Origin: Bacteroidales bacterium
GTDB taxonomy: Bacteria; Bacteroidota; Bacteroidia; Bacteroidales; Muribaculaceae
DNA length: 44,163 nucleotides
Reading direction: 5' to 3'
Assembly: GCA_014800845.1 (NCBI GenBank)
Contig: JAAVFJ010000070.1
Coordinates: 1 to 44,163, forward strand
Positions 18,821 to 37,833 of this stretch are shown here, piece after piece; the stretch's first letter is position 1; each line of letters starts with the position of its first letter. Both the position numbers and the translations under genes were made by a program. Below the pieces are notes generated by a model. That model had not been told where the DNA came from, did no database searches, and was given only the letters and a program-made list of their open reading frames with translations.

Positions 18821-18980
18821 GGGTTAAAGGTTACGGGTTAAGGGTTATGGGGGAGGTTTTAGGTGTTAGGTTTTAGGTTTTAGAGCATGGGCTGTTAGAT
18901 TCGGAGTTCTCGGAGTTCTCGCCCCCATCACCCATCACCCATCACCCATCACCCTTAACCCTTAACCCTTAACCCTTAAA
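18821..18980. repeat. Telomere-like intergenic element A
   Basis: Fills the space between convergent mlaF and CYTH. The left arm (18821-18855) is G-rich with GGGTTAN units. The core contains GGGCTGTTAGAT and two 9-bp units TCGGAGTTC (18901-18918). The right arm is four CCATCAC and three CCTTAAC heptamers (18925-18973) plus a partial unit. The arms are complementary, so the whole can fold into a hairpin. The left arm abuts the mlaF stop, and the stop codon of the CYTH gene (18976-18978, minus strand) lies inside the last repeat unit. Confidence 0.85.
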
Positions 18981-19437
18981 GAGCAGAGTTGTAGTAGCGG
19001 GGATTGCCGGTTACTTCGGGGCCGGCGAAGGGGGGTAGGGGATAGTTGTGAGTGCTTTGGGGAAGCTCTATTTCGGCTACTTGCAGCCCGCTGTGCGCAC
19101 CCTCGAATATGTCTACCTCCCAGGTGTGGCCGGCGTAGGGCACTATGTAGCGGGTCTTGATAATCAGGTGCCCCTCGCAAAGAGTGAGCAGATGGCGGGC
19201 ATCGTCGGCCGGAATGGCGTATTCAAATTCCAGGCGTGTGTCTCCAGCGTTTCGCCCTTTCACCGTTAGAAAGGCAGCCACACTCCCGTCTGCCATCTCC
19301 GTAATGCGTACGCGCACAGTGCGTTCCGGCACGCGGCTCAGATAGCCCTGAGTGATTCGTCGGGTTTTTGCAGGGTCGCAGAGCGCGAGATAATCATCGG
19401 TCACGACCAGATACTTATGTTCGATTTCTAAAGCCAT
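18976..19437 (-). CDS. CYTH domain protein
   Basis: The 153-residue product is a compact CYTH/triphosphate-tunnel metalloenzyme. The signature ExExK appears as EIEHKYLV at residues 3-10, and the tunnel is lined by basic and acidic strands such as RTVRVRI, FLTVKGR, RLEFEYAI, LIIKTRYIVPY and WEVDIFEG. Single-domain bacterial CYTH proteins often hydrolyse inorganic tripolyphosphate or nucleoside triphosphates; the exact substrate is unknown. The stop codon is formed within the adjacent heptamer array, implying the element arrived right at or replaced the gene's end. No clear minus-strand promoter is seen upstream. Confidence 0.85.
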   Translation of the reverse strand: MALEIEHKYLVVTDDYLALCDPAKTRRITQGYLSRVPERTVRVRITEMADGSVAAFLTVKGRNAGDTRLEFEYAIPADDARHLLTLCEGHLIIKTRYIVPYAGHTWEVDIFEGAHSGLQVAEIELPQSTHNYPLPPFAGPEVTGNPRYYNSAL

Positions 19438-19484
19438 ATCAAAGAATCAGACAATTTGACCAATTACACATAGAAAAAATTCAG

Positions 19485-19492
19485 TAATTTTG
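19485..19492 (+). promoter_or_regulatory. -7 box of the DUF5686 gene
   Basis: TAATTTTG about 30 nt before the GTG start. TTTG at 19455-19458 is 26 bp upstream, longer than usual for a -33. Confidence 0.4.
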
Positions 19493-19522
19493 CAGTCAAT
19501 TCTACAAAGATAGCAATTATAG

Positions 19523-21847
19523 GTGAAACTGAATCGATTTCTACATATAATTTTGTGTTTTTTGGGGGCGTCAGCTGCTTTATCGGCATCTGCGGATACT
19601 GACACTACGGCCGTGATGCTCAATGAGGTTGTGGTGCGTCCGCACAAGGTGAAATACAGCAAGAAGAATAATCCGGCAGTAGACCTGATGGAGCGCATAC
19701 GCGCCGCCCGCGAGAAGACCGACCCGCGCCGACTCCATTTTTACAGCTATGATACTTACGACAAAACCGTGCTGGCACTCAATGACTTCAGTCCGAATCA
19801 GGATGAGGGATTCTTTGCCAAGCACATGAAATACATCTTTGACTTCATAGACACAAGCGACATCTCCGGCAAACCGATTCTGCCCCTTTCGGTGAAGGAG
19901 ACAAGCAGCCGCACCCTCTATCGCGCCACGCCGCGCACGGAGAAGCAGGTGGTGGATGGCATCAAGACGCAGGCGCTCGTAGACCAGATGAATCAGGATG
20001 GTGTGCGGAAGTTTGTGGAGGATGTGTTGCGCGAGGTGGACATCTACGACAATGACATAACGCTGATGCAGAACCGTTTCGTCAGCCCTCTGTCGCGCAT
20101 AGCCGCTAACTACTACAAATTCTGGCTCGACACCGTGACGCTCCCCGAGGGGCGCATGAAGGAGCTTACCTTTGCCCCCCACAACCCGGAGTCGATGGGT
20201 TTCAACGGGCGGATGTATATCCCCGTGGATGACAGTATCCCCTACGTGAGGCGCATCAGCATGCAGGTGCCCAAGGCCATAAATCTGAACTATGTGCAGA
20301 ACCTCTACATAGTGCAGGAATATGAACTCGATTCGCTGGGTAGCCGCCACAAGGTGAGAGACGACATGGCTGTGGAGATTGAGCTTATCCCCGGCACTCA
20401 GGGGCTTTACGCCAGGCGTCAGACTCACTACACTAATTTCTCGTCCGAGGCTCCCGAGGCTGAGTACATGGCCTATTTCAGTAAGACGGGGCGCACACAT
20501 GTGCTGGAGACGGCAGCCATGCAGAACGATGAATTCTGGCAGCGGAGGCGCCTGGTGCCTATTCGTGAGAATGAGATGGGAGTGAAGAAACTGCTCGCAA
20601 TGCTCAGGAAGCATCGCTGGTTCTACTGGACGGAAAAGGTGGTGGGTGTGCTCGCCAACGGCTATCTGCCCACCGGCAAAGATTCCAAGTTTGACATAGG
20701 CCCGGTCAACACTATGATTTCTGCCAACACCGTGGAGGGTGCGCGTTTCCGCCTGGGGGGGATGACGACCGCCTCGCTCAGCCGACACATCTTCGCACGC
20801 GGTTACGCCGCTTATGGCACCAAGGACCACAAATGGAAGTATGGCGGTGAGCTGGAATACTCCTTTCTGCCGAAGAAGGTGCACAGCAGGGAGTTTCCAG
20901 TCCACAGCCTGCGCCTGACTCACAGCTACGACCTGGACATGATAGGCCAGCATTACCTCTTCACCAACCCGGACAACATCTTTCTCTCGCTGAAGCGCCG
21001 CGAGAGCAACAAGGTGACCTATCGTCACCTCACGCGGCTGGACTACACGCTGGAGCGCGCCGGGGGCTTTTCGCTGGTGGCCGGCCTGAAGCATGAGCGG
21101 CAGGAGGCTACCGAGTGGTTGCCCTTTGTGGATGGCTACGGAAATGTCTTCGGCCACTACGACCAGGCCGCCCTGACGCTGCAACTGCGCTACGCACCGG
21201 GGGAGACTTTCTATCAGATGCGCTCCGGGCGTGTGCCTATCAATATGGATGCGCCGGTCTTCATCCTCACTCACGAATTTGGCCCGAAAGGGGTGCTCGG
21301 CAGTCGCTTCACTCTGAACAAGACGGAGTTCTCGGCGCAGAAACGCTTCTGGTTCTCCACCTTCGGCTACACCGACATCATTCTGAAAGCCGCCAAAATC
21401 TGGAGTCAGGTGGACTATCCCGCGCTCGCCTGGGCCAACGCAAACCTCTCCTATACCATTCAGCCGGAGAGCTATGCGCTGATGAACCCCATGGAGTTTG
21501 CCACCGACGAGTTCCTCTCCTGGGACCTCACTTACTGGGGCAACGGTGTGCTGTTCAACCGCGTGCCGCTGCTGAAATACCTGCGCCTGCGCGAGGTGCT
21601 CACCTTCCGCGGTCTGTGGGGGCATCTCACTTCGCGCAATAACCCCGAGCTGCGCAACAATCTGTTCCGTTTCCCCTTCGATTCATTCACAAAACCTATG
21701 GAGCGCGAACCCTACATGGAGATAGGGGTGGGCATAGACAACATCCTGACAATCCTGAGAGTAGACTATGTCTGGCGCCTTACGTATCGCGACACCCCCA
21801 ACGCCGACCGCAGCGGTGTGCGCGTTTCGCTGCACTTCACCTTCTGA
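19523..21847 (+). CDS. DUF5686 outer-membrane protein
   Basis: The 774-residue product starts with GTG and a signal peptide (RFLHIILCFLGASAALSASA). It matches the DUF5686 family of Bacteroidetes outer-membrane proteins: VMLNEVVVRP near the N-terminus, NPAVDLMERIRAAREKTDP, a long soluble region, and a C-terminal part of alternating strands ending in Phe (VRVSLHFTF), as in beta-barrels. Many relatives start with a carboxypeptidase-regulatory-like domain; this one lacks it and goes straight into the VVRP segment. Function is unknown. It may share a message with the DUF2156 gene 49 nt downstream. Confidence 0.8.
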   Translation: MKLNRFLHIILCFLGASAALSASADTDTTAVMLNEVVVRPHKVKYSKKNNPAVDLMERIRAAREKTDPRRLHFYSYDTYDKTVLALNDFSPNQDEGFFAKHMKYIFDFIDTSDISGKPILPLSVKETSSRTLYRATPRTEKQVVDGIKTQALVDQMNQDGVRKFVEDVLREVDIYDNDITLMQNRFVSPLSRIAANYYKFWLDTVTLPEGRMKELTFAPHNPESMGFNGRMYIPVDDSIPYVRRISMQVPKAINLNYVQNLYIVQEYELDSLGSRHKVRDDMAVEIELIPGTQGLYARRQTHYTNFSSEAPEAEYMAYFSKTGRTHVLETAAMQNDEFWQRRRLVPIRENEMGVKKLLAMLRKHRWFYWTEKVVGVLANGYLPTGKDSKFDIGPVNTMISANTVEGARFRLGGMTTASLSRHIFARGYAAYGTKDHKWKYGGELEYSFLPKKVHSREFPVHSLRLTHSYDLDMIGQHYLFTNPDNIFLSLKRRESNKVTYRHLTRLDYTLERAGGFSLVAGLKHERQEATEWLPFVDGYGNVFGHYDQAALTLQLRYAPGETFYQMRSGRVPINMDAPVFILTHEFGPKGVLGSRFTLNKTEFSAQKRFWFSTFGYTDIILKAAKIWSQVDYPALAWANANLSYTIQPESYALMNPMEFATDEFLSWDLTYWGNGVLFNRVPLLKYLRLREVLTFRGLWGHLTSRNNPELRNNLFRFPFDSFTKPMEREPYMEIGVGIDNILTILRVDYVWRLTYRDTPNADRSGVRVSLHFTF

Positions 21848-21896
21848 ACCCTCGGGGCCTCTCAGGCGTTTTACATGCGAAACAACACTGTAAACT

Positions 21897-22862
21897 ATGT
21901 CAAGCACACTATCACTCTCCACCTCTGATATAAAGACAACCCACTGCGAAGATGCGCAGCAGGTGACACTGAATTTTGCACCCATCACAGCCGCCAATAT
22001 GCCCCTGGTCTGGAGCTATCTCCAGCGGGAGCCGGGACGCACTTGCGATTTCTCCTTCGGCGGCGTACTGATGTGGGTAGACCTGTTTCACTACGAAATG
22101 GCAATATACGATGACACCCTATTCATAAAGGGTCGTCTGGAAAATGACCTGAGCAAGGTGGCATTCTCCCTGCCCGTAGGGAAGCTGAGCGTAAGCGAGT
22201 CCATAAAGGTGCTCAAGGCTTATTGCCGTAAGGAGGGATTGCCTCTGCGGTTCTCAGCGATACCCGAATACAGCATGTCAGACTTCATGGCGGCCAATCC
22301 CAAGAGCATAGCGCAGCTCACCGACTGGGCTGATTATCTCTATGATGCCGAGAAGCTCGCCACCCTTTCCGGAAAGAAGATGGCCAAGAAGCGCAACCAT
22401 GTGAACCAGTATGTCAATCTCTACGGCGAGGAGACTTATGAACCCCTCACGCTCCGTAATCTCCCCGATGTGGAGGCCTTCATGGACCGCCTCGATGCCG
22501 ACCCGGCTCCCGGTGAGCAGGCGGCTATAGAGCGGCAGCTGGCCCGCGATGTGCTGCGCCTCATGGAGCATGAGCAAACCCCTCTGCAGGGTGGGTTGCT
22601 GAGAGTGGATGGGCGCGTGGTGGCTTTCAGTGTGGGCGATGTCAAGGGGGACACCCTGTTCGTGCACATCGAAAAAGCCGACCGCGAGATAGCCGGCAGC
22701 TACGAGATGATTAACAAATCCTTTGCCGCCGACATGGTGGCGCACCACCCGGAAATCCGCTTCATAAACCGCGAAGACGATGCCGGCGACGAGGGTCTGC
22801 GCAAGGCTAAACAGTCCTATCACCCCACCGAATTGCTGAAGAAATACAATGTTATTTTCTAA
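21897..22862 (+). CDS. DUF2156 (GNAT-fold, PG lysyltransferase-like) protein
   Basis: The 321-residue product has the DUF2156 architecture of two GNAT-like halves. Landmarks are TCDFSFGGVLMWVD, LYDAEKLATLSGKKMAKKRNHVNQY (conserved KK..KRNH), and the C-terminal IEKADREIAGSYEMINKSFAADM and FINREDDAGDEGLRKAKQSYHPTELLKKYNV. The closest characterised proteins transfer lysine from aminoacyl-tRNA to phosphatidylglycerol, but stand-alone soluble members without a membrane domain have no proven function. No signal peptide or membrane segment is present. The gene lies 49 nt after the DUF5686 gene. Confidence 0.8.
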   Translation: MSSTLSLSTSDIKTTHCEDAQQVTLNFAPITAANMPLVWSYLQREPGRTCDFSFGGVLMWVDLFHYEMAIYDDTLFIKGRLENDLSKVAFSLPVGKLSVSESIKVLKAYCRKEGLPLRFSAIPEYSMSDFMAANPKSIAQLTDWADYLYDAEKLATLSGKKMAKKRNHVNQYVNLYGEETYEPLTLRNLPDVEAFMDRLDADPAPGEQAAIERQLARDVLRLMEHEQTPLQGGLLRVDGRVVAFSVGDVKGDTLFVHIEKADREIAGSYEMINKSFAADMVAHHPEIRFINREDDAGDEGLRKAKQSYHPTELLKKYNVIF

Positions 22863-22891
22863 GCTATGAAGTCTGGATATTGCTCTAAAAT

Positions 22892-22907
22892 CATGTTGTA
22901 GAACATG
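22892..22907. promoter_or_regulatory. Palindrome CATGTTGTAGAACATG, possible operator
   Basis: Six-base arms CATGTT/AACATG around GTAG, 30 nt after DUF2156 and 28 nt upstream of the next promoter. The same design (TATGTTGTAAAACATA) recurs at 36930-36945. Confidence 0.35.
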
Positions 22908-22934
22908 GTTTGAAAGCATTTTATACGTAAAATA

Positions 22935-22966
22935 TTTGGCCATTTCAACAAAACATTGTAATTTTG
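22935..22966 (+). promoter_or_regulatory. Promoter of the TlpA-like gene
   Basis: TTTG 22935-22938 and TAATTTTG 22959-22966, 20 bp apart. Predicted start about 22972, giving a 130-nt leader. Confidence 0.6.
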
Positions 22967-22972
22967 CGTTGT

Positions 22973-23102
22973 AATAATGGACACGGCACAGGCGAAGAGA
23001 CGCTGAGATGCCGGAGTTTCAAGCCCCGAAAGTCGGGGCGTCGCCGTAGAATATCGCGACAGATATGCACCGGCGATTGAGTTGAATCCAAAATTATTAA
23101 TT
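22973..23102 (+). other. Structured 5' leader
   Basis: GC-rich leader of about 130 nt with a strong hairpin GCCCCGA-AAG-TCGGGGC at 23023-23039 and further complementary segments (GGCGA near 22992 with TCGCC near 23041; GACGC near 23001 with GCGTC near 23037, mutually exclusive). No known riboswitch is recognised. Confidence 0.4.
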
Positions 23103-23600
23103 GTGAAATCATTGTCAATCGTATTGGCAGCCGCAACCCTGATTTTCCTCAGCTCCGCCGCTCAGACCGAGCGAGCCGAAGCAACTCCCGGCGCCGAGGC
23201 GCCCGCGCTGCAGATAAGCAACGCCGAGGGCATGATGTCCCTGGCTCAGCAGCGAGGAAAGTATGTGATTGTTAACTTCTGGAGCAGCGATGACCCCGAG
23301 TCTCGCATAGCCAACGCTCTGTATGACCGCGAATTTTCAAAGTCACAGGCTTCGGAAGTAAACTGCATTTCAGTCTGCACGGATTCTGACCGCAACATGT
23401 TTGAGGCCATCGTGAAGACCGACGAATTGCAGACGGCTCACCAGTATTTTCATGAAGATTCACGGCTCGCCAACATTCTGGCCGACTATAGCCGTTTAGG
23501 GATCAACACCGCTTATCTCATCAGCCCCGAGGGGAGAGTGATAGCCGTGAATCCCGATGTAGATTATGTAAAAAGTTTATTGTCAGCTCAGAGAGCCTGA
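23103..23600 (+). CDS. TlpA/thioredoxin-like protein lacking CXXC
   Basis: The product of about 165 residues has a signal peptide (KSLSIVLAAATLIFLSSAA) and then a thioredoxin-fold domain: MMSLAQQRGKYVIVNFWSSDDPESR, a central ISVCTDSD strand, and the cis-Pro loop region around INTAYLISPEGRVIAVNP. In redox-active TlpA proteins the segment after NFW carries CxxC; here it is SSDDPESR, so the dithiol site is absent and thiol oxidoreduction is unlikely. It probably binds a partner in the periplasm. The GTG at 23103 was chosen because it places the signal peptide at the N-terminus; a TTG at 23082 is possible. It is preceded by a long structured leader. Confidence 0.72.
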   Translation: MKSLSIVLAAATLIFLSSAAQTERAEATPGAEAPALQISNAEGMMSLAQQRGKYVIVNFWSSDDPESRIANALYDREFSKSQASEVNCISVCTDSDRNMFEAIVKTDELQTAHQYFHEDSRLANILADYSRLGINTAYLISPEGRVIAVNPDVDYVKSLLSAQRA

Positions 23601-23666
23601 CGCAAATGGGCTCCGCAGCCGCGCGCCGGAGCCGTGGATTATGAAAAACACTAACTCCTGAAGTAT

Positions 23667-23702
23667 AAAGACCGGAAACCTGCTGAGGTTGTTCCGGTCT
23701 TT
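23667..23702. terminator. Bidirectional terminator
   Basis: AAAGACCGGA (23667-23676) pairs with TCCGGTCTTT (23693-23702), with T-runs on both strands. It separates the convergent TlpA-like and CCA genes. Confidence 0.85.
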
Positions 23703-23710
23703 TATTTGTG

Positions 23711-25465
23711 TCAGGCCTTCTTGTCGGCGCTCATTTTCTCGGCGGGTTTGCGTCTGCGTGAGCGGTGATGACGCCTCTTCTTGCGCTTGTTCTTAGCCTC
23801 GGCTGCTTCGGCAGGCTCTTCGCTCACTCGCTCCTTGGTGCGTTTGCCGCGCTTGTGTTTGCGCTTATTTTGCTTCGATGCGGCAGCCTCAGCCTCCTGA
23901 GCCACCTTATTCTTCTTGCGGGCCTCCTTGCGGCGGAGAGCCTTGGCAGTGGAGTCGGGTATGCCAAACTCCTTGCCGGCGCCACGCTTGCAGCCGGGCA
24001 GAGGCACCAGCGCGTCGGGCATAGGCTGCACAGCCACCGGGTAATTCTTACCCTTTACCCCCTCGCCGTGGGTGGGCGTGAAGTCCAGAAGCAACTGCTC
24101 GAATTGCTCGCGTGAGCGCAGCGGATTTTTGTAGGCCTCCTTCATCAGAAAGCTTATGCAGTCAGCCACCTGCGGTCCACTCTTCATCTGCTTCAGATTC
24201 TTGATGCGCCGCTCGCCGAAGGGGAGGTGATACTCATACATAGCCGAGCCCTCAGCTTGCATCTGCTCATCTCGGAGCATAATGGCGGCTCCCTGCCCCG
24301 GTTTGGCCAAAGCGCAGCTGTGAGCATGGTTTATGGCATCGATGAGAGTGATGAGCGCGCGGAAGCGGGAGGGGGAAACACAGTTATATTGCAGGTGCCT
24401 CAGGTCCCTGTCAGAAATCTTCTCGCCGTCGCGCCCCCAGTGGCGTGCAGCCGTGTGGTGGCGGCAGAGAAACACGACCTCCTTCATGAAGGGGCTGTGA
24501 TACTTCAGTCGTTCCAGAATCTGCATGACCGGTGCCTGTACACGCAATTCATGGCGCGGATAGCGGGGCTCGCCGGAGTCGGTAGGGGAGTAGGAGGCAG
24601 GTTTGCCCATGTCGTGGAGCAGAGCGCCCATGCGCAGGGCTATGTCGGGTTCCTTTATGCCATTGAGGGTGCGGAGCGTGTGGTCCCATACGGTGCCCGG
24701 CTCCCCCTCCAAAGGGAGCTCGCAGAGCTGCTTGAGCTCCGGCATCAGCACATCGAGCACACCAACCTGGTTCATCAGCTCCAGCGCGCGCCCGGGACGG
24801 GGACCGAGTAGCATCTTTTCAAACTCGCCGCGCATGCGCTCCACCTTAATAATATCCAGACGGGGAGCATTGCGCTTCATAGCCTCCATGATACGCTCCG
24901 GTATCTGCCAGTCCAGACGGGTGGCGAAGCGGATGGTGCGCAGTATTCTCACAGGGTCGTCATCGTAAGTGGCGTCAGGGTCGGTGGGGGTGTCGATGTG
25001 GCGGCATTTAATGTCGTGGATGGCGCGACCGGTTATGTCGAGCATCCTGTCGCGGGAGATGTCGTAATAGAGCGAATTGATGGTCAGGTCGCGGCGATAG
25101 CAGTCATCCTCGAGCGAACCGAAAGCAGTCTCCGGGTTGCGGGAATTGTGGTCGGTGTACTTTTCAGCCCTTGTCTGCACAATCTCAATGTCGTCATGCG
25201 GAAAAGCCTTGAGGCGCGTCATTGCTGTGCCGTAACGCTTGAAGATGACCGGACGGAAGCAGGTGAGATGTTTTTTCCAGAGCCATGTGGCAAACTCCAC
25301 ACCACCCATCGGGAGGTCAACAGCCAGGTCCACATCCTTTATTTCCAGCCCCAACTGGCGGTCGCGGCAGCATCCGCCTACCGTAAATACGTGGCCCTCC
25401 CACTTGGTGCCCTCAATGAGGCGCCGCAGGTACTTCACTATGTTCAGGTAAATTTCGGTGGTCAT
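23711..25465 (-). CDS. cca: CCA-adding enzyme / poly(A) polymerase family with HD domain
   Basis: The nucleotidyltransferase head shows VFTVGGCCRDRQLG and KDVDLAVD (catalytic aspartates), followed by RRDLTINSLYYD, the RNA-binding part with RTIRFATRLDW, and an HD domain (GALLHDMGKP). It most likely adds or repairs the CCA end of tRNA. The start at 25465 (MTTEIYL) fits the family better than an ATG 11 codons upstream. A C-terminal tail of roughly 80 residues is almost pure Lys/Arg/Ala/Glu (for example KRKHKRGKRTKER and KKRRHHRSRRRK), unlike the compact core, and may bind RNA non-specifically. The gene is monocistronic with a promoter at 25528-25560. Confidence 0.85.
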   Translation of the reverse strand: MTTEIYLNIVKYLRRLIEGTKWEGHVFTVGGCCRDRQLGLEIKDVDLAVDLPMGGVEFATWLWKKHLTCFRPVIFKRYGTAMTRLKAFPHDDIEIVQTRAEKYTDHNSRNPETAFGSLEDDCYRRDLTINSLYYDISRDRMLDITGRAIHDIKCRHIDTPTDPDATYDDDPVRILRTIRFATRLDWQIPERIMEAMKRNAPRLDIIKVERMRGEFEKMLLGPRPGRALELMNQVGVLDVLMPELKQLCELPLEGEPGTVWDHTLRTLNGIKEPDIALRMGALLHDMGKPASYSPTDSGEPRYPRHELRVQAPVMQILERLKYHSPFMKEVVFLCRHHTAARHWGRDGEKISDRDLRHLQYNCVSPSRFRALITLIDAINHAHSCALAKPGQGAAIMLRDEQMQAEGSAMYEYHLPFGERRIKNLKQMKSGPQVADCISFLMKEAYKNPLRSREQFEQLLLDFTPTHGEGVKGKNYPVAVQPMPDALVPLPGCKRGAGKEFGIPDSTAKALRRKEARKKNKVAQEAEAAASKQNKRKHKRGKRTKERVSEEPAEAAEAKNKRKKRRHHRSRRRKPAEKMSADKKA

Positions 25466-25527
25466 CTTTGATTTATTGCCGGATTCGTGGTTACACAAAA
25501 GAAGTGGCCTAACCCCTTCAATGTCTG

Positions 25528-25560
25528 CAAAATTACGAAAAAAAACTGAATACCTCGCAA
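25528..25560 (-). promoter_or_regulatory. Promoter of cca
   Basis: Minus-strand -7 TAATTTTG (complement of 25528-25535) with TTG (complement of 25558-25560) about 22 bp upstream. Confidence 0.5.
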
Positions 25561-25605
25561 TTGCGGAGAAAATTACGGGTATTTTTTCGCGCGGAAAATT
25601 CTTTT

Positions 25606-25637
25606 TTTGTGTATATGAAAAAATAATTGTACCTTTA
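25606..25637 (+). promoter_or_regulatory. Promoter of the amylase gene
   Basis: TTTG 25606-25609 and TACCTTTA 25630-25637, 20 bp apart; AT-rich leader of about 100 nt follows. Confidence 0.5.
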
Positions 25638-25742
25638 CGCCGATTTTTGTTATTCGCTGAGAATGACGGATTCCATTACCTGTTTTAAGCTAATTACAAT
25701 TCTTATATTAACTATTTATTTGTTAACTATTTAAATCAATCC

Positions 25743-29063: not shown

Positions 29064-29111
29064 TTTCCCACTGCGGCTGCCCTCTGACAGCAGCCTGCAG
29101 TAATCCATAAA

Positions 29112-29146: not shown

Positions 29147-29177
29147 ATTTTTATGCGCATGAGGGGGGAGCACAATC

Positions 29178-29208
29178 TTTGCAGTCCGGGAAACTTTTCG
29201 TAACTTTG
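29178..29208 (+). promoter_or_regulatory. Promoter of the S1/P1 nuclease operon
   Basis: TTTG 29178-29181 and TAACTTTG 29201-29208, 19 bp apart. Predicted start about 29213-29215, at or within two bases of the ATG at 29215. Confidence 0.65.
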
Positions 29209-29214
29209 CAGTGT

Positions 29215-30524: not shown

Positions 30525-30525
30525 A

Positions 30526-32898
30526 ATGATCTCTGAGCAACAGACAAATATACCCGACTACCTCACCTCGCTCAATGAGCAGCAGCTCGCCGCAGTGATG
30601 TACACCGAGGGCCCCTCGCTCGTGATAGCGGGTGCCGGCTCGGGCAAGACGCGTGTGCTGACCTACAAGATTGTGCACCTGCTGCAGCTCGGTTTCGAGC
30701 CCTGGCGCATCATGGCGCTGACTTTCACTAACAAGGCGGCGCGCGAGATGAAGGAGCGCATCAGCTCGGTGGTGGGGGAGCGCATAGCCTCGAGGTTGTG
30801 GATGGGCACCTTCCACTCCGTGTTTCTGCGCATACTCCGCGCACACTCCGACCTGCTGGGTTATCGCCACGACTTCACCATCTACGACGCCTCGGACTCC
30901 AAGGCCCTCGTGACGGGTATCATCAAGGACCTGAACCTGGACAGCAAGGTCTATAAGGCGGCCACCATAGCCGGCATAATCTCCTCGGCCAAGAACTCGC
31001 TCATCTCCGTGGAGCAGTATCTGAAAGATGCCGACTTCGCCAAGCGTGACGCGGCCATGCATCGCCCCATGACCGGGCGCATCTATAAGCTCTACTGCGA
31101 GCGTTGCCGCCTGGCGCAGGCCATGGATTTCGACGATATCCTCTTCTACATGAATGTGCTGCTGCGCGACCACCCCGACGTGCTCCGCCACTATCAGGAG
31201 TATTTCCGCTACATACTTGTCGACGAGTATCAGGACACCAACTTCGCGCAGCATCTCATCATCTCGCGCCTTAGCGAGCTCACGCGAAATCTCTGCGTGG
31301 TGGGCGACGATGCCCAGAGCATCTACTCCTTCCGCGGTGCGAACATAGCCAATATCCTGGGGCTGGAGCGCCACTATCCCGACCTGCGTATCTTCAAGCT
31401 CGAGCGCAATTACCGCAGCACGCAGAACATAATCAACGCCGCAGGTTCGCTCATAAAGAAAAACCGCAACCAGATTCCCAAAAACGTATTCTCGAAGAAT
31501 GAAGAGGGGGAGAGGGTGAAAGTAATCTCAGCCTATTCCGACCTGGACGAGGCTGCGCTGGTGGCCGGCCTGATCAGCGGCACGCGGCTGGCTCAGCATG
31601 ACAGTTTCGACCAGTACGCCGTGCTCTACCGCACCAATGCCCAGAGCCGTCTACTGGAGGAATCGCTGCGTAAGCGCTCCATACCCTATAGAATCTACGG
31701 TGGCCTTTCCTTCTATCAACGCAAAGAGGTGAAGGATGCCATCTGCTATTTCCGCATGGCCATAAACCCCGACGACGATGAGGCGCTGCGCCGTGTAATC
31801 AATTATCCGGCACGTGGCATCGGTGCCACTACGCTGAAAAAGGTGAGCACCCTGGCCATAGAGAAGGGGATGAGCATGTGGCAGGTGGTCTCCGATCCCG
31901 TGGGGGCAGGCCTTGATGTCAACAGGGGCACCGCTAACAAGCTCATAGGCTTTGCCAATCTGATAGAGGACTTCATAGCCGACAACGCCAGGGGGGCGAG
32001 TGCCGACGAGCTGGCGCAGCTTATCTATAACCGCACCGGCATGCTCTCCTCGCTCATGCATGACAATACGCCCGAGGCCATCTCCCGCTCGGAGAACCTG
32101 CAGGAGTTGCGCAACGGTATTCAGGAATTTATCCAGACGCGCCTCTCGCTCGGCGAGGAGGACATAAGCATGGGTGCGTTCCTCAGCGAGGTCTCGTTGG
32201 CAACCGACCAGGACACCAAGGATGCTGCCGATGACGATGAGCCGAAAGTGACGCTCATGACCATGCACGCCGCCAAGGGTCTGGAGTTTAAGAACATCTA
32301 CATAGTGGGCGCCGAAGAAGAGCTCATCCCCTCGTCCATGTGCATGGATTCCCTGGAGGAGATAGAGGAGGAGCGGCGACTGCTCTATGTGGCCATAACC
32401 CGCGCCAAGGAGCATTGCACCATCACTTACGCCTCGCAGATGCGCCACCGCAACGGCCAGCCTACCTTCCCGCGCCCCTCGCGCTTCCTGCGTGAGATTG
32501 ACACCCGCTTCGTGAAGCTGGAAAATTCATCGGCCATGGGGGTAGGGCAGACCGGTGTGCAGGCTGTGAACAATTACCGGCAGAGCTACTCGCGTCCGCA
32601 GTTCTTCAGCTCGGGAGCTCCGCTGCGCAGCATGCCCCCCTCAGAGCCGGAGCAGCCCCGATTGCGCACCAATTCGCGCGCCAGAGTTTCCGCAGCCACA
32701 CCCGCGGTGGCCAAAGAGACCGCTGCCAGAGCCGCACAGCTGGCCGAGGGGATGAGGGTAAACCACGCCCGCTTCGGTGCCGGCACTATCCTCAGCATCG
32801 AGGGGGAAGGCGCTGACACGGCCCTCACTATTGAGTTTGATGACTTCGGGCAGAAGCGCATAATCCTGCGTTTCGCCAAATTAGATATTATAGAGTGA
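30526..32898 (+). CDS. UvrD/PcrA-family ATP-dependent DNA helicase
   Basis: The 790-residue SF1A 3'-5' helicase has the Q motif LNEQQLAAV, Walker A AGAGSGKTR, motif Ia FTNKAAREMKER, Walker B VDEYQDTN, motif III GDDAQSIYSFRGA, motif IV ERNYRSTQ, motif V TMHAAKGLEF and motif VI RRLLYVAITRAK. The C-terminal region after a Pro/Ser/Arg linker ends in a Tudor-like segment (VNHARFGAGTILSIEG) typical of PcrA-type proteins. It functions in repair and replication. The start at 30526 follows the upstream stop by one base; an alternative upstream start would overlap the preceding gene. It shares TGATG with nspC. Confidence 0.93.
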   Translation: MISEQQTNIPDYLTSLNEQQLAAVMYTEGPSLVIAGAGSGKTRVLTYKIVHLLQLGFEPWRIMALTFTNKAAREMKERISSVVGERIASRLWMGTFHSVFLRILRAHSDLLGYRHDFTIYDASDSKALVTGIIKDLNLDSKVYKAATIAGIISSAKNSLISVEQYLKDADFAKRDAAMHRPMTGRIYKLYCERCRLAQAMDFDDILFYMNVLLRDHPDVLRHYQEYFRYILVDEYQDTNFAQHLIISRLSELTRNLCVVGDDAQSIYSFRGANIANILGLERHYPDLRIFKLERNYRSTQNIINAAGSLIKKNRNQIPKNVFSKNEEGERVKVISAYSDLDEAALVAGLISGTRLAQHDSFDQYAVLYRTNAQSRLLEESLRKRSIPYRIYGGLSFYQRKEVKDAICYFRMAINPDDDEALRRVINYPARGIGATTLKKVSTLAIEKGMSMWQVVSDPVGAGLDVNRGTANKLIGFANLIEDFIADNARGASADELAQLIYNRTGMLSSLMHDNTPEAISRSENLQELRNGIQEFIQTRLSLGEEDISMGAFLSEVSLATDQDTKDAADDDEPKVTLMTMHAAKGLEFKNIYIVGAEEELIPSSMCMDSLEEIEEERRLLYVAITRAKEHCTITYASQMRHRNGQPTFPRPSRFLREIDTRFVKLENSSAMGVGQTGVQAVNNYRQSYSRPQFFSSGAPLRSMPPSEPEQPRLRTNSRARVSAATPAVAKETAARAAQLAEGMRVNHARFGAGTILSIEGEGADTALTIEFDDFGQKRIILRFAKLDIIE

Positions 32899-34052
32899 TG
32901 ACACAACAGGAAATCAAGACACCATATTATATAGTCTACGAGGACAAGCTGCGTCGCAATCTGTCGCTCATAAAGGATGTGGCAGACCGCGCAGGCGTAG
33001 AGATTATCATGGCTTTCAAGGCCAACGCTCTCTGGAAGACCTTCCCGATTATCAGGGAATACACAGGCGCCTCCACTGCCTCCTCGCTCAATGAGATGCA
33101 GCTCTCGCTCGACTATCTTAAAGGTGATGTACACGCTTATTGCCCCGTCTATACCCCCGAGACATTCCCGAAATTCATGGAGGGGTGCAGCCACATCACT
33201 TTCAACAGCATAGCCCAGTATGAGCGTTTCGCCTCCGACATAGCGGCTCACAACGCAGCCGGGAGTGGCCACCGGGTCTCGGCCGGGCTGCGCGTAAATC
33301 CGCAGTGCTCGGTGATTGACACAGACATCTACAACCCCTGTCTGCCGGGCAGCCGCTTCGGTATGACGGCCGATATGATAGGTCCGCGTCTGCCCGAGGG
33401 ACTGGAGGGCTTGCATTTCCATGCCCTCTGCGAAAGCTCCAGCTTCGACCTGGAGAGGGTGCTCGCCGCCTTCGAGGAGCAGTTCGGCCACCTGCTGCCG
33501 CAAGTGAAGTGGGTGAACATGGGTGGCGGACACCTGATGACCCGCGAGGGCTATGACCGCGAGCATCTGATAAAAGTGCTCAAGGGCTTCCGCGAGCGCC
33601 ATCCTCACCTGCAAATAATCATGGAACCGGGCAGTGCCTTCACCTGGCGCACCGGCGACCTCATAACCACCGTGATGGATGTTGTGGAGAATCAGGGAGT
33701 GAAGACCGCCATAATCGACGCCTCGTTTGCCTGCCACATGCCCGACTGCCTGGAGATGCCCTACAAGCCCGCCATAACCGAAGCGCTCCCCGACGACGCT
33801 ACCGAGGGTGAGGCCTATCGCCTCGGCGGCAACTCCTGCCTGAGCGGCGACTACACCGGCGACTGGCGCTTTGCCACCCCCCTGAAGCCTGGACAGCGCC
33901 TCACGCTCGAGGACATGAACCACTACACCACGGTCAAGACCAACATGTTTAACGGCATACAGCACCCCTCCATCTGGCTGCAAAGCTCCGACGGCACCCT
34001 CAGCTGCCTGCGCGAGTTCACCTACGCCGACTACCGCGACCGAATGGACTAA
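32898..34052 (+). CDS. nspC: Carboxynorspermidine decarboxylase
   Basis: NspC is a fold-type III PLP enzyme that decarboxylates carboxy(nor)spermidine in the alternative polyamine pathway of gut Bacteroidetes. The 384-residue product has PLP-binding Lys41 in IIMAFKANALWKTF, the HFHALCES segment, the glycine-rich phosphate loop MGGGHL, EPGSAF, and the C-terminal YTTVKTNMFNG. The ATG at 32898 overlaps the helicase stop by one base. The partner carboxyspermidine dehydrogenase is not adjacent. Three bases after the stop, telomere-like element B begins. Confidence 0.9.
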   Translation: MTQQEIKTPYYIVYEDKLRRNLSLIKDVADRAGVEIIMAFKANALWKTFPIIREYTGASTASSLNEMQLSLDYLKGDVHAYCPVYTPETFPKFMEGCSHITFNSIAQYERFASDIAAHNAAGSGHRVSAGLRVNPQCSVIDTDIYNPCLPGSRFGMTADMIGPRLPEGLEGLHFHALCESSSFDLERVLAAFEEQFGHLLPQVKWVNMGGGHLMTREGYDREHLIKVLKGFRERHPHLQIIMEPGSAFTWRTGDLITTVMDVVENQGVKTAIIDASFACHMPDCLEMPYKPAITEALPDDATEGEAYRLGGNSCLSGDYTGDWRFATPLKPGQRLTLEDMNHYTTVKTNMFNGIQHPSIWLQSSDGTLSCLREFTYADYRDRMD

Positions 34053-34055
34053 CCT

Positions 34056-34240
34056 GGGTGAAGGGTTAAGGGTTACGGGTTAAGGGTTAGGGGGCGAGAA
34101 CTTCGAGTCTTCCGAGAACTCTGAGAACTCCGAATCTAACAGCCCAAGCTCAGACCCATAACCCTTAACCCCTAACCCCTAACCCATAACCCATAACCCA
34201 TAACCCCTAACCCTTAACCCCTAACCCTTAACCCCTAACC
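34056..34240. repeat. Telomere-like intergenic element B
   Basis: Occupies the whole nspC-lipA gap. The G-rich left arm has about five GGTTANG units (34057-34091). The core is in inverse orientation to element A: four 9-bp units (34098-34133, GAACTCCGA type) then ATCTAACAGCCC (34134-34145). The right arm has twelve perfect-length heptamers of the form CCNTAAC (34156-34239). The arms are complementary. Eight bases separate the last unit from the lipA ATG. Confidence 0.88.
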
Positions 34241-34247
34241 TAAAACA

Positions 34248-35099
34248 ATGAAAGCCGACTTCCGACATAAACCCGAGTGGCTGCGCATAAAGTTGCCGCG
34301 CGGATTCAAAGCCGAGCAGGTAGTGGGCCTGCTCAATGACCGCCATATCCACACCATCTGCTCCTCAGGCATGTGCCCCAACCGCGGGGAGTGCTGGAGC
34401 CGAGGCACCGCTACCTTCATGATTGGCGGCAATGTCTGCACACGCGCCTGCCGCTTCTGCAACGTGGCCACCGGACGCCCCGCACCCCTCGACCCCGCTG
34501 AGATAGAACACATAGCCGGCAGCGTCAAGGAGCTGGGCCTGAAGCACGTGGTCCTCACATCTGTGGACCGCGACGACCTGCCCGACTACGGCGCCGCTCA
34601 CTGGGCCGCCATGGTGAGACGCATCCACGAGCTCAGCCCCGAGACCACAATAGAGACCCTCATCCCCGACATGCGCGGACGCCATGACCTGCTCGACCTC
34701 ATCATAGCCGAACGCCCCGACGTGATTTCCCACAACATGGAGACAGTGCGCCGACTCACCCCCGATGTGCGCAGCGTGGCCACTTACGACTGTTCGCTCG
34801 GCGTGCTCCGCCATCTCTCCTCACGCGGCGTGCGCACCAAGAGCGGCATAATGCTGGGCCTGGGCGAGACCCACGACGAGATAATCGAGACCCTGCGCGA
34901 CCTGCGCGAAGCCGGTTGCCACGTAGTGACCATAGGCCAATATCTGCAGCCCACCCGCAAGCACTGGCCCGTGCAGGAATACATAGAGCCCGAAGAGTTT
35001 GACCGCCTCGGCGAGATAGCCCGCGGCATGGGCTTCACGCATGTGGAGAGCGCCCCGATGGTGCGCAGCAGCTACCACGCCGAGAAGCATGTGCTATGA
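34248..35099 (+). CDS. lipA: Lipoyl synthase
   Basis: LipA is a radical SAM enzyme inserting two sulfurs into protein-bound octanoate. The 283-residue product carries both cluster motifs: the auxiliary cluster cysteines at 38, 43 and 49 (CSSGMCPNRGEC) and the radical-SAM triad at 64, 68 and 71 (CTRACRFC). The C-terminal RSSYHAEKH supplies the serine ligand of the auxiliary cluster. The ATG overlaps nothing upstream; the 195 nt before it are entirely repeat element B, so no ordinary promoter is visible. It overlaps lipB by 4 nt. Confidence 0.95.
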   Translation: MKADFRHKPEWLRIKLPRGFKAEQVVGLLNDRHIHTICSSGMCPNRGECWSRGTATFMIGGNVCTRACRFCNVATGRPAPLDPAEIEHIAGSVKELGLKHVVLTSVDRDDLPDYGAAHWAAMVRRIHELSPETTIETLIPDMRGRHDLLDLIIAERPDVISHNMETVRRLTPDVRSVATYDCSLGVLRHLSSRGVRTKSGIMLGLGETHDEIIETLRDLREAGCHVVTIGQYLQPTRKHWPVQEYIEPEEFDRLGEIARGMGFTHVESAPMVRSSYHAEKHVL

Positions 35100-35734
35100 A
35101 GACTCTGAATCTGTGGCATACCCCTTATCGCGAGATGTGGGAGCGTCAGCGCGCCTGGCAGCAGGAGGTGCGCAGTGGCGGCGAGCAACTGATAGTCTGC
35201 ACCGAGCATCTGCCCGTTTACACCCTCGGCAAACATGGCAAGGAGGCTAACGTGCTCCACCTGCCCGAGGGGGTGGAGTGCATACGCATAGACCGCGGCG
35301 GCGACGTGACCTGGCATGGCCCCGGGCAGCTCACCCTCTACCCGATAGTAGACCTCAAGCTGCTCCGCCTGGGAGTGAAGGAGTATGTCTCCCTGCTGGA
35401 GCAGGCGGTGATAGACACTCTGGAGCATTACGGCATCAAGGGGGAAAGAGTGGAGGGAGCCACCGGCGTGTGGCTCGAGACCGGCACCCCCCGCGAGCGG
35501 AAAATCTGCGCCATCGGAGTGAAAGTGAGCCACGGCGTCACCATGCACGGGCTGGCGCTCAACGTCAGCAACTCCATAGCCCCCTTCGCGGCCATCCACC
35601 CCTGCGGCTTTACTGACAAGGGGGTGACCACCATAGTCCTCGAACTGCCCGACACCCAAGCCGTCCCCGACGTGGCGGAGGTAGCCGCCCGCATAGCTCC
35701 CCGCCTCGAAACGCTCCTCACTCAGAAGCAGTAG
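35096..35734 (+). CDS. lipB: Lipoyl(octanoyl) transferase
   Basis: LipB moves octanoate from acyl carrier protein to lipoyl domains, the step before LipA. The 212-residue product has the RGGDVTWHGPGQLTLYPI signature, KICAIGVKVS with the catalytic Lys, and HPCGF with the catalytic Cys. It overlaps lipA by 4 nt (ATGA), so both are co-translated. Its 3' end faces the candidate small RNA at 35760-35861, whose terminator hairpin may also stop lipAB transcription. Confidence 0.95.
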   Translation: MKTLNLWHTPYREMWERQRAWQQEVRSGGEQLIVCTEHLPVYTLGKHGKEANVLHLPEGVECIRIDRGGDVTWHGPGQLTLYPIVDLKLLRLGVKEYVSLLEQAVIDTLEHYGIKGERVEGATGVWLETGTPRERKICAIGVKVSHGVTMHGLALNVSNSIAPFAAIHPCGFTDKGVTTIVLELPDTQAVPDVAEVAARIAPRLETLLTQKQ

Positions 35735-35759
35735 AGACTCACACCCAGCGGCGTGGGGA

Positions 35760-35861
35760 GAAAAAAATCAGGGCACCCGGTGTATGGAGTTCTGTGTTTT
35801 GGCTTACGAATTATGGCTATGAAAAGTGTAGAACCGGATGCCCTGATACGTGTTTGGTTGA
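35760..35861 (-). ncRNA. Candidate small RNA with own promoter and terminator
   Basis: On the minus strand a promoter (-33 TTG complement of 35895-35897; -7 TAACTTTG complement of 35867-35874; 20 bp spacer) is followed by about 100 nt without an ORF. The RNA is mostly one long hairpin: ATCAGGGCA/TGCCCTGAT (35767-35775 with 35839-35847), extended by CCGG pairing (35777-35781 with 35833-35837), with a large internal loop. A run of seven T follows the stem on the minus strand (35761-35767). A long stem with a central bubble recalls 6S-like RNAs, but the family cannot be confirmed by eye. Confidence 0.55.
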
Positions 35862-35866
35862 CGGTG

Positions 35867-35897
35867 CAAAGTTAGTAACTATGGCCCACGCGTCCAA
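35867..35897 (-). promoter_or_regulatory. Promoter of the 35760-35861 small RNA
   Basis: Complement of 35895-35897 gives TTG, and complement of 35867-35874 gives TAACTTTG, with a 20 bp spacer. Confidence 0.6.
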
Positions 35898-35936
35898 TAC
35901 CTAATATAGGGTATTTCTAAAACCGCAGAAATTCAG

Positions 35937-35944
35937 TAATTTTG
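35937..35944 (+). promoter_or_regulatory. -7 box of the hemerythrin-LuxR gene
   Basis: TAATTTTG, about 20 nt before the ATG at 35965; leader of roughly 15 nt. The -33 is weak. Confidence 0.5.
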
Positions 35945-35964
35945 CAACTAAAACCCCAAGCAAC

Positions 35965-36897
35965 ATGTTTACACCCTACGCATCCACTCGTCCGCTTCGC
36001 TCCCTGTTGGCAGAAAATCCCAAGCTGATCACCACCCTCAGCCGCTTCGGCATACCCCTGGGTTTCGGCGACCGCACCGTGGAGCAGGTCTGCACCGAAG
36101 CCGGCGTGGACACCCACACATTCCTGGCAGTAGTGAATCTGCTCACCGGCCGCAAGACTCACCATAACCCCGAAAAACTCTCTCTGTCCCAGTTGCTGGC
36201 ATACCTGCGAAACTCCCATGACTACTTCCTGCAGTTCGTGCTCCCCAGAGTGAGACGCGACCTCATAGAAGCCATCAGCAGCGACGCTCAGGGGGAGGTG
36301 TCCATGATGATTCTTAAGTTCTACGACGACTTCGTGGAGGAAGTGACGCGCCACATGGAGCAGGAGGAGCGCAACACCTTCGCCCCCATCGACGCCCTGC
36401 TTGCGGGGCACACCGGCGTGAGCATAGAGGGTTTCGACGATGTGCATCACCCCATGTACGACCGCCTGCGTGAGCTCAAGGAGATATTCGTCTGCCACTA
36501 CCACGCCGAGACCCCTCGCACCGACCTGCTCAACTCCGTGCTGCTCGACATTATCACCTGCGAACGCGACATAGCCGACCACGGCATTGTGGAGGAACAT
36601 CTGCTGCTACCCGCCCTCCACGACCTGGAGTACTCACTGGCAAGCGACCCCTCTGACGAACCCGGCGAACCCGAGAAGACCACCCAGGAACTTACCGGCA
36701 GAGAAAAAGAGATAGTGGTCGCCATAGCCCACGGCCTGGGCAACAAGCAGATTGCCGACCGCCTGTGCGTCTCCGTCCACACCGTGACCACCCATCGCCG
36801 CAACATCTGCGCCAAACTCGACATCCATTCCCCGGCCGGATTAACTATTTATGCACTAATTCACGGCCTGGTGGATATCACCTCAATAAAGCCGTGA
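35965..36897 (+). CDS. Hemerythrin-domain LuxR-type regulator
   Basis: The 310-residue product has three parts. Residues about 1-65 resemble the ScdA/RIC N-terminal helical domain (RPLRSLLAENPKLITTLSRFGI). Residues about 75-225 form a hemerythrin-like four-helix bundle with a full set of possible di-iron ligands: SHDYF, RHMEQEE, VHHPMYD, CHYHAE and ADHGIVEEHLLLP. Residues about 240-310 are a LuxR-type HTH (LTGREKEIVVAIAHGLGNKQIADRLCVSVHTVTTHRRNI is the recognisable stretch). It is most simply a DNA-binding sensor of oxygen, NO or iron; this is inference. The gene stands alone, and a palindrome lies 33 nt after its stop. Confidence 0.85.
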   Translation: MFTPYASTRPLRSLLAENPKLITTLSRFGIPLGFGDRTVEQVCTEAGVDTHTFLAVVNLLTGRKTHHNPEKLSLSQLLAYLRNSHDYFLQFVLPRVRRDLIEAISSDAQGEVSMMILKFYDDFVEEVTRHMEQEERNTFAPIDALLAGHTGVSIEGFDDVHHPMYDRLRELKEIFVCHYHAETPRTDLLNSVLLDIITCERDIADHGIVEEHLLLPALHDLEYSLASDPSDEPGEPEKTTQELTGREKEIVVAIAHGLGNKQIADRLCVSVHTVTTHRRNICAKLDIHSPAGLTIYALIHGLVDITSIKP

Positions 36898-36929
36898 GAG
36901 GGGGTGATTCTTGCAAAATGCCAAAATAT

Positions 36930-36945
36930 TATGTTGTAAAACATA
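36930..36945. promoter_or_regulatory. Palindrome TATGTTGTAAAACATA, possible operator
   Basis: Six-base arms around GTAA; second example of the ATGTTGTARAACAT motif. It lies about 80 bp upstream of the promoter at 37024. Confidence 0.35.
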
Positions 36946-37023
36946 TTTAAAGGGCAAATTTAGGGGCTAAATGTTGGGGTGACAAAAAAATGTAGCAAAA
37001 TGTCAAAAATATTTTATGAAAAA

Positions 37024-37055
37024 TTTGGTGGTATGAAAATTATATACTAACTTTG
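37024..37055 (+). promoter_or_regulatory. Strong Bacteroidetes-type promoter
   Basis: TTTG 37024-37027 and TAACTTTG 37048-37055, 20 bp apart, in AT-rich DNA. Transcription should begin near 37061. Confidence 0.65.
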
Positions 37056-37076
37056 CACACGTAATCACAAGCGAGA

Positions 37077-37145
37077 GATACAGACCGCCATCCCGCGGTC
37101 CATTGACATAAGGAACTGCAGTCGTGGCAAGAGAGAGTAGGTATC
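37077..37145 (+). other. Structured leader or small RNA
   Basis: GATAC (37077-37081) can pair with GTATC (37141-37145), enclosing a hairpin GACCGC/GCGGTC (37083-37088 with 37095-37100) and a palindrome ACTGCAGT (37115-37122). It directly follows the promoter at 37024-37055. No known RNA family is recognised. Confidence 0.35.
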
Positions 37146-37149
37146 GGAA

Positions 37150-37305
37150 ATGCTCCATCAATATTTGCGTAAACTATACTCTATCTTTGAAACTAATACC
37201 ACGGGAAACTTGGAAACTGCTATTTTTAATGGACATGCTATCAAGGATATTAAGGCCGATGTGAATCGGTCCCCCTCCAATAAGTTGATAGATATGGAAC
37301 CTTAA
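37150..37305 (+). CDS. Possible 51-residue small protein
   Basis: An ATG 90 nt after a predicted transcription start opens a 51-codon frame rich in Asn, Thr, Lys and Ile. The upstream frame is closed by a stop at 37138-37140, and a purine-rich GAGAGAG lies 12-18 nt before the ATG. The product has no signal peptide or membrane segment and matches no family I know. A longer minus-strand frame overlaps it (about 37174-37446), but the promoter supports the plus strand. It could be a real small gene, a leader peptide, or the remnant of a larger one. Confidence 0.35.
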   Translation: MLHQYLRKLYSIFETNTTGNLETAIFNGHAIKDIKADVNRSPSNKLIDMEP

Positions 37306-37510
37306 ATCTAATACCTCTAAAACACACTCCATCATCGCCGACACCAACTCGGCCCGACTGCTTCCTTCTCGCTTTATCCCACCCCAAAAACACTCCCCGG
37401 CCCAATCCCGCAACCCCAATTTTCGCAATCCCAATTCCGCCGACACAGCTCCACCAGCCCGTGTCTTTTTTGTTTACCCAGCAACCTCAACCTGACCAGG
37501 TTTCAGAGGC
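37306..37510. other. C-biased non-coding stretch
   Basis: About 200 nt in which the plus strand has many C and few G, with repeated CAATCCC-like and CCCCAA segments. No promoter, ORF or RNA is recognised. It leads into repeat element C. Confidence 0.4.
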
Positions 37511-37601
37511 CGGGCTGCTTGGTTGGGAGTTCTGGGAGTTCTCGGAGCTCTCGGAGCTCTCCGACAACCTAACCCTTAACCCGTAACCCCTAACCCTTAA
37601 C
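37511..37601. repeat. Telomere-like intergenic element C
   Basis: Core in the same orientation as element A: GGGCTGCTTGGT (37512-37523), then four 9-bp units (37524-37559, TGGGAGTTC twice, TCGGAGCTC twice). It is followed by five CCNTAAC-type heptamers (37568-37601). No G-rich left arm is present. Confidence 0.82.
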
Positions 37602-37635
37602 TTGGTGCCAAAAGCTGGCCCGGTTTAACTTTTCT

Positions 37636-37666
37636 TTTGTGAGGTGGGAAAAATTTCGTAACTTTG
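37636..37666 (+). promoter_or_regulatory. Promoter of DUF4494-yggS
   Basis: TTTG 37636-37639 and TAACTTTG 37659-37666, 19 bp apart. The predicted 160-nt leader includes the heptamer array at 37775-37833 and two similar GTGAGCGG segments (37688 and 37739 regions) with TCAGCC/GGCTGA able to pair. Confidence 0.6.
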
Positions 37667-37774
37667 TCCTCAATCATGTCAGCCCGTGTGAGCGGGGCCG
37701 TTGCTATTTCATTAAGACTCCTCAATCTTCCGGCTGATGTGAGCGGCCAAGTACCCCGTAATCGTAACCGCAAC

Positions 37775-37833
37775 CCCTAACCCTTAACCCGTAACCCCTA
37801 ACCCTTAACCCGTAACCCCTAACCCTTAACCCC
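37775..37833 (+). repeat. Telomere-like array D
   Basis: Eight CCNTAAC heptamers in a 21-bp higher-order pattern (CCCTAAC, CCTTAAC, CCGTAAC), ending two bases before the ATG at 37836. No core or G-rich arm. It lies inside the predicted 5' UTR of the DUF4494 gene. Confidence 0.9.

Follow-up and report, generated by a model that had tools for sequence, protein, structure and literature searches.

Dispersed heptamer repeats are known from cyanobacteria as short tandemly repeated repetitive (STRR) heptanucleotides. A Calothrix case is cited by Rehm et al. 2015 (PMC4692102), which describes heptamer repeats, GGGNATC and GGGGA(C/T)T, in Xanthomonas and Nostoc. In that paper, GGGNATC repeats occur singly or as inverted pairs, prefer four units, form quadruplexes by circular dichroism (CD), and keep the same gene context in 83% of cases between two Xanthomonas species; their G strand lies near the 5' neighboring open reading frame (ORF), whatever the orientation of that ORF. 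MacGregor 2015 (PMC4679880) reports TAACTGA repeats in Beggiatoaceae, Cyanobacteria, and five Bacteroidetes, with arrays just 5' of start codons in Beggiatoaceae. Both papers cite Mrazek 2007 for the finding that heptamers are over-represented, or the commonest, among the longer simple repeats of bacteria and for the idea that polymerase slippage produces them. There is no agreement so far on the function of heptamers or on how they grow. Here, we analyzed a contig of 44,163 nucleotides (the window; JAAVFJ010000070.1, assembly GCA_014800845.1) from a Bacteroidales bacterium of the Muribaculaceae, in which an initial annotation had noted tandem NTAACCC heptamers (GGGTTAN on the other strand) between genes.

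These heptamers form part of modular elements built in fixed order from (GGGTTAN)n as the G-rich arm, palindromic nonamers (SGAGNNCTC)n as the core, and (NTAACCC)n as the C-rich arm. With a probability of about 0.5, we propose that this lineage-specific family expanded in place, slippage-type copying having extended the elements from the core toward the neighboring genes.

Modular heptamer elements in intergenic DNA

The four intergenic sites previously placed at 18821-18980, 34056-34240, 37511-37601, and 37775-37833 were borne out by the sequence and by Tandem Repeats Finder, which read the arms at periods of 7, 14, and 21 and the cores at a period of 9. Within the window, the three-unit motif TAACCCNTAACCCNTAACCC had 20 matches, versus none in 100 dinucleotide shuffles, and the nonamer pair GAGNNCTCSGAGNNCTC had three, versus none in shuffles. 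Rfam returned no match in the window at gathering scores. Across the genome (2.45 Mb, 82 contigs), the three-unit motif was matched 74 times and its reversed control was not matched at all. We grouped the 74 matches into 25 arrays on 12 of the 82 contigs, counting the two arms of site 2 as separate arrays. Thus, the arrays are not confined to the window, and the genome search together with module labeling supports the initial annotation in seeing here a dispersed family whose members may be full or reduced.

Modules were labeled in 444 kb of this genome, consisting of the window and 20 stretches of 20 kb on contigs known to bear arrays. The labels were GGGTTAN and AGGTTTT for G-type units, SGAGNNCTC for the nonamer, and NTAACCC and AAAACCT for C-type units. 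Most of the labeled clusters (31/34) lay outside predicted ORFs and 3/34 lay inside. Composite elements made up 13 of the 34 clusters, and all arm/core junctions (19/19) were ordered G arm, core, C arm. Tandem Repeats Finder assigned periods of 7, 9, 14, 18, 21, or 27 to 51 of 70 non-ORF tandem arrays, and a lag spectrum of intergenic DNA gave weak peaks only. The nonamer is near-palindromic: the letters of GAG and CTC are each conserved in 103 to 111 of 115 units (21 arrays), and the two middle bases vary, mainly among AA/TT, AG/CT, TA, and CA/TG. At up to two mismatches, the nonamer triple matched this genome 93 times on one strand and 91 times on the other. Among 24 other genomes (15 of them congeners), only G001 (two matches) and G012 (one match) carried it; it occurred in five stretches of a viral collection and in none of 119 NTAACCC-bearing genome stretches, among the matches listed.

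The claim that one position of the constant 7-bp unit varies freely was confirmed in 188 units from 31 arrays, where position N was A in 55, C in 47, T in 51, and G in 35, and each of the other six positions was 93 to 98% one base. Because the search required two neighboring units to match exactly, the conservation of the six positions is inflated, but N is unaffected. Within arrays, the free base was the same in 210/568 pairs (0.37), versus 0.25 when shuffled across arrays, a value reached in none of 2,000 shuffles. This array-specific composition points to local amplification of the arrays. Counting degenerate ends, unlike the counting of Rehm et al., 7 of the 31 arrays had four units and 10 had five. 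Locus L176 (6139-6964) has an unbroken array of 118 TTAACCC units.

Placement at ORF edges and comparison with relatives

The NTAACCC strand, for which sides are given here, runs into the next ORF edge, whether start or stop, and its G-rich complement reads away from that edge; stop codons sometimes lie inside the array. In this genome, arrays lay within 20 bp of the 3'-side ORF at 18/24 evaluable sites and of the 5'-side ORF at 5/24, and the 3'-side ORF was the nearer one at 17/24; one more array lay inside an ORF. By type of ORF edge on the 3' side, arrays came within 20 bp of 10/13 stops and 8/11 starts, with 8/11 start codons standing no more than 8 bp from the array. In a many-phyla set of at least 119 NTAACCC stretches (a lower bound on the taxon spread, with at least one stretch, L149, from congener G005), 51/94 arrays lay within 20 bp on the 3' side and 15/94 on the 5' side. 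These 94 were the evaluable arrays among 122 in the matches listed, with 22 at a locus edge and 6 inside ORFs.

The polarity extended to NTAACTC, a heptamer whose G strand (GAGTTAN) has no G-run and which was present in 32 of 395 same-phylum genomes. Of its 29 evaluable arrays (30 loci), 23 abutted an ORF on the 3' side and 6 on the 5' side; the 3' side was the nearer one in 22 of these 29 genomes, and stop edges were abutted in 18/20 versus 1/14 cases. With one array per assembly (51 NTAACCC and 29 NTAACTC), the 3' side was nearer in 58/80 (p = 3.8e-5), and the pooled edges on the 3' and 5' sides, respectively, were 35/45 and 10/43 for stops and 17/35 and 6/37 for starts. The NTAACCC part of this sample drew on 80 of the at least 119 stretches (39 were left out), reduced to 67 without repeated assemblies and to 51 evaluable ones. 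ORFs were called by length only, and NTAACCC alone kept its direction at cutoffs of 60, 80, and 120 amino acids (p = 0.05 for stop edges at 120). Because every unit carries TAA on the C strand, ORF artifacts arising from stop codons of the arrays should favor the left side and so oppose the polarity. A stop codon fell within the array at 14/41 right-hand and 9/55 left-hand stop edges, which fits arrays reaching gene ends.

The reversed heptamer CCCAATN proved unsuitable as a neutral control: in the viral collection it occurred in 20 stretches, versus 17 for NTAACCC, and it is itself repeated in some genomes. Reversed patterns can be abundant elsewhere (19 matches of CCCAATN in G024 and 36 of CTCAATN in G447), and still other heptamers are used by other genomes.

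The elements are lineage specific, as the corresponding spacers of a relative lack them. The three-unit motif was present in 12 of 111 genus genomes, this one included; the 99 without it include many incomplete genomes. Of the 22 other genomes in which the protein encoded downstream of site 2 had a match, this relative, G018 (97% complete), was the closest, with 90% identity, and its genome had no match of the three-unit heptamer motif. Within the 74.5 kb compared, G018 had no non-ORF array of period 7, 9, or 14, versus 43 in the 444 kb sampled here, and its two period-9 arrays were both inside ORFs. For the same gene pair, the spacer measures 195 bp here versus 36 bp in G018 at site 2 and 181 versus 23 bp at a site on contig C9; other gaps between matched blocks were 101/37, 103/26, 109/18, and 103/60 bp. 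Four corresponding G018 spacers were read by eye, and one has a GC-rich hairpin in place of the element. The comparison of orthologous spacers that the initial annotation proposed found those of G018 shorter and free of elements for the matched gene pairs. Gain or loss of the elements postdates the split from G018, and gain is the more likely because 99/111 genus genomes lack the motif.

Element-bearing spacers were collinear with G018 in 8/12 evaluable cases and coincided with synteny breakpoints in 4/12. A rearrangement reading, suggested by six 20-kb stretches compared with G018, was rejected, since breakpoints in element-free spacers (8/48) were not significantly rarer (Fisher p = 0.23); the test set aside 32 spacers that lacked data, 3 element-bearing ones among them. 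Arrays of the NTAACCC type also occur in named isolates, such as Parahaliea mediterranea and Paenibacillus sp. HGH0039. An assembly artifact is unlikely, given the collinear spacers, the position of the arrays inside contigs, and their presence in named isolates.

The features of the four window sites are given in the table below. The radical-SAM ORF that follows site 2 probably encodes a lipoyl synthase, because the adjoining ORF is of the lipoyl-ligase family.

Table. Heptamer arms, cores, and adjoining ORFs at the four sites of the window
Feature	Position	Strand	Remarks
Site 1 G-rich heptamer arm, GGGTTAN (degenerate)	18821..18851	+	Directly 3' of the stop codon of ABC-transporter ORF 18041-18820
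Site 1 second G-type heptamer arm, AGGTTTT units	18854..18883	+	
Site 1 27-bp core	18885..18911	+	26/27 identical to site 2 copy
Site 1 palindromic nonamer core	18903..18920	.	Two units, GGAGTTCTC
Site 1 C-rich heptamer arm	18924..18979	+	CCCATCA units passing into NTAACCC
CYTH-domain ORF	18976-19437	-	Stop codon entered by site 1 C-rich arm
Site 2 G-rich heptamer arm, GGGTTAN	34056..34093	+	3 bp past the stop codon of ORF 32895-34052
Site 2 nonamer core	34095..34130	.	CGAGAACTC-type units
Site 2 27-bp core	34123..34149	-	Partner of site 1 copy
Site 2 C-rich heptamer arm, NTAACCC	34154..34240	+	Ends ~7 bp 5' of radical-SAM ORF 34248-35099
Site 3 nonamer core	37526..37561	.	Four units
Site 3 C-rich heptamer arm	37569..37601	+	
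Site 4 C-rich heptamer arm alone	37768..37833	+	21-bp super-unit; 2-3 bp 5' of DUF4494 ORF start
DUF4494 ORF	37836-38282		Downstream of site 4

Lying 15 kb apart in inverted orientation, the two 27-bp cores (sites 1 and 2) could serve as a substrate for inversion. Stretch L245 contains forms with 9-bp arms (2585-2700 and 7640-7790), with GGGAGTTTT-type units on the left, AAAACTCCC-type units on the right, and the core GAGNNCTC; these keep the G-core-C order. In congener G100 (L482-L491), the partner module differs from the nonamer core: by eye, a stem-loop, e.g., TTTCGCCAAAAGGCGAAA or AAGTTGAGCCTGCTCAACTT, directly follows 10/12 NTAACCC arrays. In G087 (L499-L501) and G111 (L493), TTAACCC arrays adjoin repeated TAATGTCACTAAATTA or a near variant, and in L501 the complement of this type of repeat lies on the opposite side of the array. 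In congener G017 (L210), AAAACCT heptamers stand immediately 5' of the start codon of the orthologue of window ORF 34248-35099. Contig C68 of this genome (L244, 17190-17400) carries an element of ~200 bp that resembles, by eye, a miniature inverted-repeat transposable element (MITE) with long terminal inverted repeats; it matches at least 25 places in G018 and has no Rfam match.

Proposed growth in place and alternative readings

Under growth in place, the tandem repeats would extend by slippage-type copying outward from the nonamer core, each arm lengthening until flush with the neighboring gene. The 3' end of the C-rich strand would be the advancing front, replacing spacer sequence and halting where coding sequence is under selection. 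Such outgrowth is suggested by the symmetry of the two arms, by the palindromic core, and by the way the arms fit flush to genes. As a likely consequence, spacers would be transcribed as long hairpins where elements are two-armed and as unstructured C-rich leaders where they are one-armed. More tentatively, a general, sequence-independent growth may shape bacterial intergenic DNA, with a leading strand whose advancing front overwrites the spacer up to the coding sequence; the arrays here would have been seeded on both sides of the palindromic nonamer core. General growth, if true, would explain why unrelated heptamers of many phyla point alike at starts and stops.

Several observations weigh against growth in place. 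Plain slippage should make neighboring units alike, but adjacent units share the free base in 53/157 cases (0.338), versus 0.381 in within-array shuffles. Growth was therefore not simple one-unit copying, or it is old; a weak excess at lag 2 (55/126, equaled or exceeded in 6% of shuffles) and, at site 4, a super-unit of 21 bp suggest that units were added two or three at a time. The common 27-bp core of sites 1 and 2 implies some copying between sites. At NTAACTC start edges, the two sides did not differ significantly (5/9 versus 5/15). Polarity was also weaker in the viral collection, where the arrays no more than 20 bp from the 3'-side and the 5'-side ORF, respectively, numbered 31 and 22 of 58 for NTAACTC (p = 0.11), 6 and 3 of 10 for NTAACCC (p = 0.75), 4 and 1 of 10 for CCCAATN (p = 0.11), and 25 and 8 of 44 for TAACTGA (p = 0.049; 104 stretches). 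Polar growth and its advancing front are what we infer from the arrays, and no front was observed. Against pure growth, the weightiest argument is that a conserved hexamer stands next to a near-random, saturated seventh base. This pattern, which a binding array would fit better, suggests that each unit is under selection, something that slippage alone does not require.

In a binding array of this kind, a protein or RNA would recognize TAACCC or its G-rich complement at a 7-nucleotide pitch, probably in RNA, so that the hexamer is selected and the seventh base drifts. The base counts above and the start codons within 8 bp of arrays in this genome are in line with this idea, and MacGregor proposed translational regulators for TAACTGA (PMC4679880). 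Nevertheless, we consider it unlikely. Stops are abutted as often as starts, and in congener G005 N is T in 57/58 units, with a different position varying instead. The motif is missing from 99/111 genus genomes, many of them incomplete and G018 among them; therefore, there is no conserved regulon.

A role for G-quadruplexes, in which the G-rich strand would fold and tune expression as suggested for GGGNATC repeats, appears improbable. The initial annotation was right that the strand has the potential to form them, as predicted from four or more successive GGG tracts at site 2 and elsewhere, and the CD results of Rehm et al. (PMC4692102) concern a related motif in the same placement. However, NTAACTC has the same polarity without G-runs, most clearly at its stop edges; thus, G-quadruplexes are not the general cause of placement. 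Furthermore, TTA is conserved, though quadruplex loops should vary freely.

About equally improbable is that the two-armed elements serve as terminators or protectors of mRNA 3' ends. When 18 elements were folded as RNA on both strands and scored against shuffles, two-armed elements folded better than shuffles (z = -4.8/-7.0 for site 1, -7.4/-5.0 for site 2, and -14.4 at the extreme), in support of the earlier suggestion that paired arms can form hairpins. The GC-rich hairpin seen in one G018 spacer where an element stands here also fits a role at transcript ends. Yet the one-armed array of site 4 hardly folds (z = 0.6 and 2.3; 0.0 and -1.3 kcal/mol), and two further elements did no better than shuffles on one or both strands. 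A scan limited to loops of 3 to 8 found no terminator-like pattern within sites 1 to 4, the nearest being a weak one 14 bp past site 2 and inside an ORF, and two elements (C55:31388 and C14:44810) adjoin terminator-like hairpins that are intact by eye.

Insertion of copies between genes by a small mobile element, MITE-like or resembling repetitive extragenic palindromic (REP) sequences, is very unlikely. In its favor, the copies are dispersed, the G018 spacers lack elements, and a 27-bp core, oppositely oriented on the + strand, is common to sites 1 and 2. This core was the only common body found in 468 kb of this genome, with no third copy there within three mismatches; its inner 16 bp had three more matches, each with three mismatches. 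An all-against-all comparison of 20 core neighborhoods found repeat units in common and no further body, and the free-base content varies from array to array. The least probable reading of all is that broken ends received telomere-like sequence and were then joined, an origin that would leave head-to-head arms with the G strand reading outward from both flanks as in fused telomeres; the 4/12 breakpoints that might favor it do not differ significantly from those of element-free spacers and 8/12 element spacers are collinear.

Comparison with described heptamer repeats

Telomeric repeats likewise consist of short tandem G-rich units, and the head-to-head arms resemble a telomere fusion. The term "telomere-like" used in the initial annotation thus holds as a resemblance and not as a location: the arrays stand between ORFs in contig interiors, with a 7-bp unit, a free base, and no chromosome end. 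The STRR sequences are also dispersed heptamers with different units, and the comparison with them was made here solely through the reversed pattern CCCAATN.

The same annotation knew of no described element with this architecture. A literature search did not find NTAACCC with a nonamer core, and to that extent the statement stands; however, intergenic heptamers of the same polarity have been described (PMC4692102), and another heptamer is reported from five Bacteroidetes (PMC4679880). Like TAACTGA, the present unit is 7 bp long, contains TAAC, is intergenic, and is patchy over phyla; TAACTGA lies mostly just 5' of starts in the main genome, and the cited portions of PMC4679880 describe no free position, G-rich arm, or palindromic core for it.

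The closest likeness is to GGGNATC, which shares a 7-bp G-rich unit with a free position, dispersed and mostly intergenic placement, single or inverted-pair arrangement, and the placement polarity seen here, which is weaker in the viral collection. Unlike GGGNATC, with its retained gene context between two species, the elements described here are missing in the relative G018. The unit differs, no nonamer core is reported for GGGNATC in the cited portions of PMC4692102, and the polarity extends here to a unit without G-runs. The empty relative, the near-random base, and this G-run-independent polarity offer a direct test of growth direction against selection. Under the growth reading, the family works in the same way as the heptamer repeats already described from Xanthomonas, Nostoc, and Beggiatoaceae. 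Intergenic heptamer repeats and, for GGGNATC, the G-strand polarity were already known; new are the heptamer-nonamer-heptamer element, a conserved hexamer whose neighboring seventh base is near-random, and the extension of that polarity to a heptamer lacking G-runs.

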